DNA of 25,042 nucleotides from a virus: positions 1 through 25,042 of the IMG/VR virus record IMGVR_UViG_3300049489_000639; one strand, given 5' to 3'. The notes under the pieces were generated by a model. It ran no database searches. It was not told the DNA's origin and saw nothing but the letters and a program-made list of their open reading frames with translations. Each line of letters begins with the position of its first letter. Position 1 is the first letter of the stretch. This document shows positions 17,014 to 24,702 of the stretch, in pieces. The translations under genes and the position numbers were made by a program.

Positions 17014-17404
17014 CTGTGTTGCTCTTTAACCGCTCGGGTATAGGGCCTTGAACGAGCACGATCTTGGTCGGGACCGCATCCTCGCTTGAGGGTCCGTGCT
17101 CGTCGACGTATCGACGTTGCCGAATTGCATCGTCGTACTTTTCGGGGGCCAGCGACTTCAGCATGAAGATAAGTAGCATGTCGCTCTTCTCGATGGCGCG
17201 CTTTACCGCTACCGCTTCGAGGGCCTCTAACCGGTCTGTCCTGAGTTTCTCTAGGTACTGTTGAAATGGTTTTGTCTTCAGCCACAGTCGCGCTGTGCTG
17301 TAGGGCACGTCAGCTTTCTTCGCGGCCTGCTTAACGATACCCTGCGCCTCGATGTAGGCTTCGGCGAATTTCTCCTGCTTGACCTTATTCGTCGAGCGGG
17401 ACAT
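16994..17404 (-). CDS. Terminase small subunit
   Basis: A 136-residue protein directly before and overlapping the large terminase gene. Residues 8-50 (KQEKFAEAYIEAQGIVKQAA, then a turn and STARLWLKTKPFQQYL) form a helix-turn-helix typical of small terminases that recognise the packaging start site. The central helices (LEALEAVAVKRAIEKSD) and FMLKSLAPEKYDD match the oligomerisation region, and the acidic, polar C-terminus fits the tail that contacts the large subunit. Its ATG lies inside the 3' end of the methyltransferase gene (20-base overlap), so the packaging genes are probably transcribed together with it. Confidence 0.88.
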   Translation of the reverse strand: MSRSTNKVKQEKFAEAYIEAQGIVKQAAKKADVPYSTARLWLKTKPFQQYLEKLRTDRLEALEAVAVKRAIEKSDMLLIFMLKSLAPEKYDDAIRQRRYVDEHGPSSEDAVPTKIVLVQGPIPERLKSNTDEDSGR

Positions 17405-18617
17405 ACGGTTCGCCGTTTATGGTGCATTCGAAATCTTTGCCGGAGGCTTCGCAGTGGCGCTTGTAGCGGTCGATTATCACTTGGCAGTATTGTGGTTCCA
17501 GCTCGATCCCGACACAGGTACGATTCAACTGATCGCAGGCAATAAGCGTTGTGCCAGTGCCTAGGAACGGATCGATCACCGTTTCGCCGCCGGTAATCTT
17601 CAGAACTTCCGCTGCGAACGTCAGCGGCATCGTTGCTCCGTGTATAGAAGCGAACTCTAATGAGCGCGTCGGATCGACGTTAATCACCGCATCCTTGTCG
17701 CCATGAAAAGCGGCTGTCGGTATAGCCCGGGAGGGTAACTCTTCGGGCGACAACAGAAATACGAACTCAAAATTTGAGTTGATCACGTTCTTCGCCGCCG
17801 CTGGCGCCGATAAACGCTTGTTCCAAATTAGAACATCAATCAGATGATTGCCGAAATCGTACAACCAGCCAACCAGATCGACCTTGTTGCCAGCTAGCAT
17901 TTGGATATTTATAGCCGCGCAATTGGTCTTCTGCAGTGCATTGTGGGCGACCTTGCCGATGAATGCTCGATACTCCCCGACATCTAGGTCGTCAGTAAAT
18001 CCGAGATACGAGCTCGTCTGAAGGCTCTTGTTTGCCATCTTCACGTTATCGCCTCGGTTGTAAGGCGGGCTGGTGAAGCAAACGTCCGCCTCCCGCCAGT
18101 TCGAAATGTCCTGACAATCGCCGCAAACTACTCGATGCCGCCCGAGCGTGATCAGATCGCCCCGCTTGATGAAGCATTCCTTTTCGAGGTCTGGCTCGAA
18201 GTCGTCGTCCACTACCTCTGGCTCGGCTTCCTCTTCTTCTGGGAGCAGATCACGGAGCGCCCACTCATCAACATCGAATCCGAGGTCTTCGAGCGCCTCG
18301 ATTTCAATCTTGATGTTGTCGATGTCCCACTCGGCGTCCGCGGCGAGTTTGTTGTCGAGAATTCGGTATGCCTTCTTCTGCGCTTCGGTGAGACCCTTGA
18401 TTTGGTAGACCGGTGCTTTCTCCAGCCCGAGCTTTTTTGCGGCGGCCAAGCGTCCATGACCAACCAACACGATAAAATCTTCGTCGCAAACTATCGGCTG
18501 CGCCCAGCCCACCATCTTGATTGAGTTCGCAATATGGTCAACCTGCGTCTCCGGGTGCTTCTTGTTGTTGAAGCTGTACGGGATGAGCCTAGAAAGTTCA
18601 ACTTCTTCGACTTTCAT
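17385..18617 (-). CDS. ParB-like domain fused to a DNA methyltransferase (beta class, N4-C or N6-A)
   Basis: A 410-residue fusion. Residues 1 to about 110 form a ParB/sulfiredoxin-like domain, with LIPYSFNNKKHP and the GHGRLAAAKKLG motif at 53-64. An acidic linker (125-145) follows. The methyltransferase has HRVVCGDCQD (161-170), the catalytic TSPPYNRG at 182-189 and the cofactor-binding DPFLGTGTT at 349-357. With the catalytic motif before the SAM motif it belongs to the beta class, and SPPY is commonest in N4-cytosine enzymes, although adenine modification is possible. Such fusions are frequent in phages beside the terminase and may modify phage DNA against restriction. The product ends 20 bases inside the small terminase gene. 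No cognate endonuclease is seen. Confidence 0.9.
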   Translation of the reverse strand: MKVEEVELSRLIPYSFNNKKHPETQVDHIANSIKMVGWAQPIVCDEDFIVLVGHGRLAAAKKLGLEKAPVYQIKGLTEAQKKAYRILDNKLAADAEWDIDNIKIEIEALEDLGFDVDEWALRDLLPEEEEAEPEVVDDDFEPDLEKECFIKRGDLITLGRHRVVCGDCQDISNWREADVCFTSPPYNRGDNVKMANKSLQTSSYLGFTDDLDVGEYRAFIGKVAHNALQKTNCAAINIQMLAGNKVDLVGWLYDFGNHLIDVLIWNKRLSAPAAAKNVINSNFEFVFLLSPEELPSRAIPTAAFHGDKDAVINVDPTRSLEFASIHGATMPLTFAAEVLKITGGETVIDPFLGTGTTLIACDQLNRTCVGIELEPQYCQVIIDRYKRHCEASGKDFECTINGEPYVPLDE

Positions 18618-20726: not shown

Positions 20727-21019
20727 TAGTCCTCAAACATCTTTTTCATTATTGCGGAGATGTCCTCGGGCGTGATGGCGCGAGCATACCCTAATCGTGG
20801 GTCCAGCTTGCCGGTGAATATGCTCATAGCTACGGGGTCCACATCGCCCTCGATTTCATGGCTCACGTATTTGGGAAGCTGGCTTGCTCGCCAATCCTTG
20901 AAGTCGGGGCTGGCCTCGCACCGAGCGCAAGCGCGGGCAAATCGGAAACTCATCTCACCTGTGGTGATCGTCGTCGTCATCTCCTTCTCATGCCCGCAGT
21001 GCTCGCATTTGTCGGTCAT
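20726..21019 (-). CDS. Small zinc-binding-like protein
   Basis: A 97-residue protein with two CxxC pairs: CEHCGHEKE at residues 5-13 and ACARCEAS around 30-37, enough for one zinc site of the ribbon type. The rest includes SHEIEGDVDPVAMSIFTGKL and a C-terminal helix. The ATG overlaps the stop of the J-domain gene (ATGA), so the two are coupled. Zinc ribbons in phage early operons are common, and the partner (DNA, RNA or protein) cannot be told from the sequence. Confidence 0.65.
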   Translation of the reverse strand: MTDKCEHCGHEKEMTTTITTGEMSFRFARACARCEASPDFKDWRASQLPKYVSHEIEGDVDPVAMSIFTGKLDPRLGYARAITPEDISAIMKKMFED

Positions 21020-21444
21020 GTGGTGCCGTGCCCCTTATCAAACCACTTTAAGCAGACGGCTATAAGAGCTTCACGTGACATGCCGTTGATTGCCGTTTTG
21101 TACACTTCCCGCTTCCTTTGTCTTTCGCCCAGCCGGATGCGCTCCGCCTCTTCGCCTGCGCGCTTCAGATTCTCAAATGCCTCGGTGACCGGGTCTTTCT
21201 TAGGCCCTGTCCGAAACTGCGCGAAGATATCGTCCCTCTCGGGAGTCCTTTGCCATTGCCAGCCGCCTGCGCCTTCCCGCGAGCCTTGCTGTCGATTCCT
21301 CAACTCAATCGCCACATCCATCTGCCGATTAATCTCGGCCATGACCTTCGTGTCGCCGCCGCGATCCGGGTGATGCTTTTTCACCAGAGTCTTCCATCGT
21401 TCTTGGATTTCGGCTTCGGTCTGACAGCCTTGGAAGTAGTTCAT
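21016..21444 (-). CDS. J-domain (DnaJ-like) protein
   Basis: The ATG at 21444 (MNYFQGCQTEAEIQERWKTL) is chosen because AAAGG lies about nine bases upstream, and a GTG at 21471 is possible but lacks this. The product is 142 residues. Residues about 13-50 are a J-domain: helix II WKTLVKKHHPDRGGDTK carries the conserved HPD tripeptide that stimulates Hsp70 ATPase, followed by helix III. The remainder is a charged, linker-like region and a C-terminal helix with MSREALIAVCLKWFDK. Phage J-domain proteins may recruit host DnaK for replication or assembly. No glycine-rich or zinc-finger DnaJ segments follow, so this is a J-only protein. Confidence 0.8.
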   Translation of the reverse strand: MNYFQGCQTEAEIQERWKTLVKKHHPDRGGDTKVMAEINRQMDVAIELRNRQQGSREGAGGWQWQRTPERDDIFAQFRTGPKKDPVTEAFENLKRAGEEAERIRLGERQRKREVYKTAINGMSREALIAVCLKWFDKGHGTT

Positions 21445-21474
21445 TGGTTTGGCCTTTAGTCGGTAGGTCACAGC

Positions 21475-23400: not shown

Positions 23401-23474
23401 TGGTGTGACTATCGGGATTCGAACCCGAACCGCTAGAGCCACGGTCTAGCGTGCAGCCTTTACACCATAGTCAC
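23401..23474 (-). tRNA. tRNA-His (anticodon GTG), unusual C33 and A73
   Basis: The acceptor GTGACTA / TAGTCAC, D stem GTGT / GCAC, anticodon stem CTAGA / TCTAG and T arm TCGGG, TTCGAAT, CCCGA all pair fully. The seven-base anticodon loop CCGTGGC puts GTG at 34-36, reading His codons, but position 33 is C instead of the near-universal U. Discriminator 73 is A, and CCA is encoded. Classic bacterial tRNA-His has C73 paired with G-1. A genomic G stands at -1 here. The variable loop is four bases. Confidence 0.88.
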
Positions 23475-23665
23475 CGTATAGCAGGCCCGCAGCGGCGTCG
23501 GTTTTGAGTTCCTGCGCAACCGAAGAACAGAAACCATCTCCACCGCCGAAGGCCACAAGTAATAAAGACGTTTTTGGAAACGCACACCAAACCTCGTGAC
23601 TATTCGAACTTGTGCCGCGTTCACGTCCACGGCGGGGCTTTCATTTCTGTTTGTCGTCTGTCTTT
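23475..23665 (-). other. Spacer between two tRNA genes, no gene supported
   Basis: This 191-base spacer has no supported coding frame: the open minus frame across it continues through both tRNA genes and is a shadow. A TTCGAAT core at 23602-23608 is not flanked by a T stem. Nothing else is recognised. It could carry tRNA processing signals. Confidence 0.5.
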
Positions 23666-23739
23666 GGAACGGAGAAGGATTCGAACCATCGCCCTCTTGC
23701 ACACATGGCAAGCGCTCTACCAACTGAGCTACCCGCTCC
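23666..23739 (-). tRNA. tRNA, anticodon most likely TGT (Thr), unusual A33
   Basis: The acceptor GAGCGGG / TCCGTTC, D arm GCTC, AGTTGGTA, GAGC and anticodon stem CTTGC / GCAAG pair fully. The T arm is GATGG, TTCGAAT, CCTTC with one T-T mismatch. The loop CATGTGT gives TGT at 34-36 (Thr, ACA) with A at position 33. Base 73 is C with a G at -1, the pair typical of tRNA-His rather than Thr. No CCA is encoded. Amino acid identity is therefore uncertain. Confidence 0.82.
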
Positions 23740-23852: not shown

Positions 23853-24116
23853 CTATGCGGCCTGCGCGAACTCCGTGTTGCGCGGCTGCACCGGCGCGGT
23901 CAGCACAAGGCTCGCAATCGCCATCTGCTGGCCCTGCTGGAAGTGAGTGAACCACACCGACGCCTCGCGGCTATCCGGGATGATTGCGGCGACCGCCTTG
24001 GCGTACTCAATACCGAGCGTGCGAATCTGCTCGATGCTCTTCTGCGTATCTTCGTCCGGCTTGTGATACTCAAGTGCGTTTACCATCTCTGCGACTTTCT
24101 TCTCGTTCATTGGCAT
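23853..24116 (-). CDS. Acb2/Tad1-like cyclic-nucleotide sponge (candidate anti-CBASS/anti-Thoeris)
   Basis: An 87-residue all-helical protein with AAGGAAAG before its ATG. It contains LEYHKPDEDTQKSIEQIR, then AAIIPDSREASVWFTHFQQG and QQMAIASLVL. The order Y-H-x-P, I-R, then P-D-S-R-E-x-S and a following helix is the pattern I know from the Acb2/Tad1 helical hairpin family, whose members assemble as oligomers and bind cyclic oligonucleotides or gcADPR, depriving CBASS or Thoeris of their signal. The THFQQG piece matches the Acb2 branch. Length (about 70-100) agrees. It lies next to tRNA genes in the accessory early region, as expected of a counter-defence gene. The family call is from memory of the consensus, and the ligand is not deducible. 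Confidence 0.7.
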   Translation of the reverse strand: MPMNEKKVAEMVNALEYHKPDEDTQKSIEQIRTLGIEYAKAVAAIIPDSREASVWFTHFQQGQQMAIASLVLTAPVQPRNTEFAQAA

Positions 24117-24169
24117 ACGTTCTTTCCTTTTTCAATGTGCCTTTCGGCGGTAAATTTTATTCTCTGATC

Positions 24170-24502
24170 CTAAACGGTCCTCCAGGTCTTCCCCTGAATG
24201 ATGTGACTGATGGCCGTTTGGCTCACGCCGAAGCGGTCGGCGATTGCTTTCTGCCCCTCGCCTTTCACGAACCTCGCGCGAATGTCCCGCACCTTCTCGA
24301 CCGTGAGCTTTGCCTGCGGCGCAAGACACTCGCCGACCAAGATCGCCCGATGCGGCGCGAGGTCCGGCCAACTGGCGTCGGCCCGCGCAGCATACTCCTC
24401 GGCTTCCGCCCTGTCGTCAAAATCGGCCCGAGCGCCATCATTTGGCTCAATCGTCCCGCGACCGTCCTGATTCACCACGATCCACCAAGACCTTTTCGTC
24501 AT
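24170..24502 (-). CDS. Helix-turn-helix protein
   Basis: The ATG at 24502 (MTKRSWWIVVNQDG) overlaps the upstream TGA (ATGA). The product is 110 residues. The N-terminal half is a small alpha/beta part (FDDRAEAEEYAARADASWP) with an ILVGECLAPQAK strand. The C-terminal 45 residues, LTVEKVRDIRARFVKGEGQK then AIADRFGVSQTAISHIIQGK, form a helix-turn-helix of the type seen at the end of phage homing-endonuclease-like and small regulator proteins ('G.s...IA..fgvs...is.I..g..w'). Without a nuclease motif I take it to be a DNA-binding protein of unknown target. Confidence 0.7.
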   Translation of the reverse strand: MTKRSWWIVVNQDGRGTIEPNDGARADFDDRAEAEEYAARADASWPDLAPHRAILVGECLAPQAKLTVEKVRDIRARFVKGEGQKAIADRFGVSQTAISHIIQGKTWRTV

Positions 24503-24702
24503 ACCCTTGCCGCGCAAAAGCTAATCACCGAGCGATCCGCGCCCTCCTTGTCTTTCGCCCGCCTCACGGCACTAATGGCGCGGGATCGCTCATACACTGC
24601 AAGCCGCTTTCTCAGCCTTGCGTTTTCAGTCATCTCATACCCAAGCAAAAACAAACTCGTGCCAGAAACCGCCGAACAAATTATTACAAAAATCGCTATC
24701 AT
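24499..24702 (-). CDS. Small membrane protein
   Basis: A 67-residue protein with GGGGGC before its ATG at 24702. Residues 1-20 are hydrophobic (MIAIFVIICSAVSGTSLFLL), a likely N-terminal membrane anchor, followed by a basic helical part (ENARLRKRLAVYERSRAISA). No lipobox is clear. It could be an accessory small membrane protein, but nothing indicates a lysis function. It is coupled to the next gene by a four-base overlap. Confidence 0.6.
   Translation of the reverse strand: MIAIFVIICSAVSGTSLFLLGYEMTENARLRKRLAVYERSRAISAVRRAKDKEGADRSVISFCAARV

Follow-up and report, generated by a model that had tools for sequence, protein, structure and literature searches.

The phage proteins Acb2 and Tad1 are hexameric hairpins with inter-chain pockets that hold cyclic immune signals (PMC12043709). 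In T4 Acb2, the Y8A substitution disrupts cyclic dinucleotide binding (PMC12657218, PMC12657230), T68M is reported to reduce binding (PMC12657230), and F82 stacks on dinucleotides (PMC12657218). A putative Acb2 has also been announced from a Microbacterium phage (PMC13348362), and the structure 9ptq carries the PDB title 'Acb2 homolog 43 in complex with 3'cADPR'.

An analysis was conducted of a window of 25,042 bases, which is a whole virus record. A gene near its end encodes a protein of 87 residues with the translation MPMNEKKVAEMVNALEYHKPDEDTQKSIEQIRTLGIEYAKAVAAIIPDSREASVWFTHFQQGQQMAIASLVLTAPVQPRNTEFAQAA. Read from the sequence, the gene starts with ATG and stops with TAG, has AGGA 8 nt upstream of the start codon, and lies in an open frame of only 92 aa in all. 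The features of the locus are collected in Table 1.

Table 1. Features of the sponge candidate locus and its surroundings, with positions in the 25,042-base window.
Feature	Position	Strand	Basis or remark
Acb2/Tad1-type stand-alone hairpin protein (87 aa), putative immune-signal sponge	23853..24116	(-)	PF24729, phrog_1454, model, 9ptq match
Likely ribosome-binding site AAAGGAAAG	24122..24130	(-)	read from sequence, 5' of ATG
Codon of Y17 (= T4 Acb2 Y8)	24066..24068	(-)	Y in 65/68 relatives
Codon of R32 (= PaAcb2 K26 / T4 K23, basic ligand position)	24021..24023	(-)	R in 67/68 relatives
Codon of R50 (SRE motif; = PaAcb2 R67, homolog 43 R)	23967..23969	(-)	R in 66/68 relatives
Codon of T57 (= T4 Acb2 T68)	23946..23948	(-)	T in 66/68 relatives
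Small ORF	24499..24702	(-)	
Helix-turn-helix protein	24170..24517	(-)	helix-turn-helix at C-terminal end
tRNA-Thr (tgt)	23665..23739	(-)	just downstream of the 87-aa protein gene
tRNA-His (gtg)	23401..23474	(-)	downstream of the 87-aa protein gene, after tRNA-Thr
Small protein with J-domain-like motif	21016..21471	(-)	HPD motif (KKHHPDRGGD)
ParB-methylase fusion	17385..18617	(-)	phrog_498, PF01555

The protein scores 31 bits against the HMM of the Pfam family PF24729 (Acb2_Tad1_hairpin), whose curated cut-off is 27 bits; the match covers residues 17-69 with E 3e-7. It also matches phrog_1454 (E 8e-9), for which no function is named. Starting from an alignment of the protein with four phage relatives, 160 relatives were collected from IMG/VR and 80 of them retained as loci; the family alignment contains 68 of these relatives and the 87-aa protein, and all 69 rows match PF24729. 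An HMM of the 68 relatives, built without the 87-aa protein, scores it at 59.1 bits, where 2,000 shuffles of its sequence reach at most 9.2 bits and the next best among the 506 stop-to-stop ORFs of the window 5.2 bits. With these controls, membership of the hairpin family is not in doubt. In the PDB, 9ptq is the best match to the profile of the family alignment (1.1e-8), and Tad1 chains (0.014) and T4 Vs.4 (0.47) point more weakly the same way. A phmmer search of the PDB with the 87-aa protein alone returned nothing relevant.

A monomer model was made with AlphaFold2 from the 69-row alignment, with a mean pLDDT of 89.5. It has a short first helix (residues 3-14) followed by an antiparallel hairpin of two helices (22-45 and 50-73, pLDDT mostly above 90), with no extra domain. 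In a Foldseek search of the PDB, 9ptq comes out on top (probability 0.96, TM-scores 0.64 and 0.79), at a weak E of 0.87. VIA-align places the model on 9ptq with Z 8.0 over 65 residues (rmsd 2.4), and on Acb2 (8h2x) and T4 Vs.4 (7uq2) with Z 6.2 and 6.0. For a helical hairpin a Z of 8 is modest, and values near 6 are also obtained with other helical hairpins, so those for 8h2x and 7uq2 alone are no proof of kinship; the kinship to 9ptq is proven by the sequence profile rather than by the Z of the fold. The family and the helical-hairpin fold that the sequence-only reading had proposed are thus borne out by the Pfam score, the PDB profile matches and the model, with 9ptq as the best solved match.

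The same reading had named the motifs Y-H-x-P, I-R, P-D-S-R-E-x-S and THFQQG, and every one of them is in the protein (Y17-H-K-P20, I31-R32, P47-D-S-R-E-A-S53 and T57-H-F-Q-Q-G62). Its further suggestion, that the sequence seems to mix features of two branches, finds little support as an unusual combination. Among the 68 relatives, Y-H-x-P is present in 65, an I/L/V-R pair in 67 and P-x-S-R-E-x-S in 63, the last being followed by T-H in 13. The combination of YHxP, I/L-R and PxSREKS is, by sequence, what a large branch of stand-alone hairpins, here called the SRE branch, normally shows, and the protein is therefore no odd hybrid. Only Q60-x-G62 recalls the T-x-[LI]-Q-x-G of canonical Acb2, a likeness of two residues. 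An HMM of canonical Acb2 gives the protein 3.0 bits, a score reached by 151 of 2,000 shuffles, so that it has no affinity to canonical Acb2 beyond chance. An Acb2/Tad1 hybrid was accordingly rejected as the main reading. In a tree, canonical Acb2 (nine sequences) forms its own clade (support 100/99) apart from the SRE branch, and the 87-aa protein and homolog 43 (9ptq) are on the side of the SRE-type hairpins, outside that clade. The 87-aa protein sits at the most divergent edge of the SRE branch, and because there are few columns and its end branch is long, its exact place within the branch is unsure.

Used as a tblastn query, an SRE-branch member finds 326 phage records (Mycobacterium, Paenibacillus, Gordonia, Streptomyces and others), and nearly all of those listed are named 'hypothetical protein'. 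Some relatives in Paenibacillus and Brevibacillus phages (KT361655, KT361654, NC_028805) and in Cyanophage S-2L (MW334946) are called 'phosphomannomutase' or 'tail assembly protein', and these names look like misannotation.

The protein is divergent within its branch. When rows were scored by HMMs trained on rows under 50% identity, it was the lowest of the 38 scorable rows at 59.1 bits, the next being at 71 to 79. The departures lie in helix 3. There is A52 in place of a lysine in 63 of the 68 relatives, W55 in place of an alanine in all 68, and I67 in place of an asparagine in 66; F59 (L, I or V in relatives), Q64, M65 and V71 also depart. These changes may stem from drift, or they may alter hexamer contacts or the choice of ligand; sequence does not distinguish between these. 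A scan of viral contigs with the single protein found no closer relatives, and a search with an alignment of the protein and its two nearest tree neighbours finds only ordinary SRE members, the best of them 43% identical over 60 residues. The full set of substitutions recurs in no further relative that was inspected, although one (L166) shares the isoleucine at the N67 position.

The residues at ligand positions are conserved. In three MAFFT modes, Y8, K23 and T68 of T4 Acb2 align with Y17, R32 and T57, and Y11, K26, R67 and T74 of Pseudomonas Acb2 (PaAcb2) align with Y17, R32, R50 and T57. R32 is a conservative replacement of the Acb2 lysine K23/K26; K26 and R67 of PaAcb2 are presumably ligand positions. 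The position of T4 F82 is V71 in the 87-aa protein and alanine in Pseudomonas Acb2, so the missing aromatic is not decisive.

Taken together, the protein very likely serves the phage as a counter-defence sponge, and it belongs to the Acb2/Tad1 hairpin family as a stand-alone hairpin. What the analysis establishes is its membership, its predicted monomer fold and its conserved ligand residues; the hexamer, the binding and the ligand we infer. Each chain would form a helical hairpin and six chains a hexamer, by analogy with Acb2, Tad1 and homolog 43. The inter-chain pockets would bind and hold small cyclic signals, namely those made after infection by bacterial TIR (Thoeris) or cGAS-like (CBASS) sensors, and with the signal held the killing effector would stay off. 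A sponge for Thoeris and/or CBASS signals appears to be the best reading, and signal capture is well motivated because the ligand residues are conserved and the nearest solved homologue is bound to 3'cADPR. Since that homologue, 9ptq, is a 3'cADPR complex by its PDB title, an ADP-ribose-type Thoeris signal (3'cADPR) would be favoured by a small margin over CBASS signals. Cyclic di- and trinucleotides are fully possible as ligands, because Y17, R50 and T57 are kept.

It is possible, if rather doubtful, that the protein takes CBASS signals only (cyclic di- and/or trinucleotides), like PaAcb2 and T4 Vs.4, and has no Thoeris activity. Against this, the profile and the tree separate it from canonical Acb2 and join it to homolog 43 and the SRE branch, and V71 stands at the position of the dinucleotide-stacking T4 F82 (PMC12657218). 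However, all four counterparts of the Acb2 residues (Y17, R32, R50 and T57) are present, and homolog 43, a 3'cADPR binder, has lost the tyrosine to a threonine where the 87-aa protein has kept Y17, which makes a dinucleotide pocket plausible. In another reading, an improbable one, the helix-3 changes (K52A, A55W, F59, N67I and V71) would reshape one pocket such that it prefers a signal new for hairpin sponges, for example a product, other than 3'cADPR, made by another type of Thoeris; cyclic dinucleotides would still go into the Y17/R32 pocket.

Departures at the near-invariant helix-3 positions 52, 55, 64, 65 and 67, and a gene that lies beside tRNA genes and upstream of packaging genes in transcription order, might instead suggest a degenerate or repurposed hairpin that binds no signal, such as a structural or regulatory phage helper. 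This is unlikely, as Y17, H18, P20, R32, P47, S49, R50, E51, S53 and T57 are all kept: of the positions at or next to known ligand residues, these are under the strongest constraint. The reading frame is also unbroken, and a good ribosome-binding site precedes it. A true Tad1, with beta-domain and hairpin, that has been cut short is barely credible. SRE and T-H are indeed common to the Tad1 hairpin (SRENACALTH), but the model of the 87 residues is strandless and the 92-aa open frame leaves no room for a beta-domain; open-frame length and fold rule it out. The chance that the gene is an accidental ORF is next to nothing: the opposite strand does carry overlapping ORFs, but this is ruled out by the shuffle and six-frame profile controls (59.1 bits against 9.2 and 5.2).

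On the minus strand, in transcription order, a small ORF and a helix-turn-helix protein precede the 87-aa protein gene, and the two tRNA genes follow it. After tRNA-His there are several small ORFs, then genes for a J-domain-like protein, a RusA-like resolvase and a ParB-methylase fusion, and then terminase, portal, scaffold, a likely capsid protein and tail genes. The J-domain-like protein matches phrogs of unknown function and is possibly a DnaJ-type phage co-chaperone. The fusion joins a ParB-like N-terminal domain to an N6/N4 DNA methylase, and may possibly provide protective DNA modification.

The phage is remote from sequenced phages. There is no nucleotide match to the record among 50,697 phage records, and the terminase is about 25% identical to known phages in the best of the matches listed from phage records. 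A close-relative scan of IMG/VR viral contigs found no relatives of the terminase, portal or capsid protein. In two other phages, a hairpin gene follows the portal gene. In Gordonia phage Chidiebere (L005, 2489-4780), gp24, a relative of the 87-aa protein, comes after the portal gene and before an RNA ligase and an annotated VIP2-like ADP-ribosyltransferase, and in Vibrio phage D96a (L089, 1-479) a canonical Acb2 likewise comes after the portal gene.

The 87-aa protein is a divergent, otherwise ordinary new member of a known hairpin sponge family. A family whose choice of ligand is being actively studied thereby gains a divergent natural variant, and the variant's substitutions at near-invariant helix-3 positions make it a useful natural test of the residues that set this choice. 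The stand-alone SRE-type hairpins, present in hundreds of phage records, should be read as candidate CBASS/Thoeris counter-defence.

Compared with the described systems, the protein shares with Tad1 (cbTad1 7uav/8smd, 8kbb-8kbh) a hairpin with SRE...LTHxEEA. Tad1, however, has an N-terminal beta-sheet domain (beta1-beta4) before the hairpin and is about 120-135 aa long; the model of the 87-aa protein is all-helical, with no strand and no Tad1 beta-domain, and it is therefore not a Tad1. Canonical Acb2, as in Pseudomonas phage p26 (8h2j/8ixz) and T4 Vs.4 (7uq2), has the same short first helix and hairpin, with Y, K/R, R (not in T4) and T at the ligand positions, and differs in a GYR-type start, a usually longer inter-helix part and K-T-D-[LI]-Q-x-G. 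Homolog 43 (9ptq) is likewise a stand-alone helical hairpin, with the P-x-[SG]-R-E-x-S...T motif and on the same side of the tree, but is only 17% identical and has T for Y17 and K for R32. The SREKS-type PF24729 hairpins, such as Lactococcus phage 1706 gp70, Paenibacillus phage Tripp gp59 and Gordonia phage Chidiebere gp24, have K52, A55, N67 and a terminal A-R that are missing from the 87-aa protein, which has a short extra C-terminal tail. At about 26-33% identity to it, they are alike in YHxP, I/L-R, PxSREKS or a near version, the threonine, and a length of about 65-106 aa.
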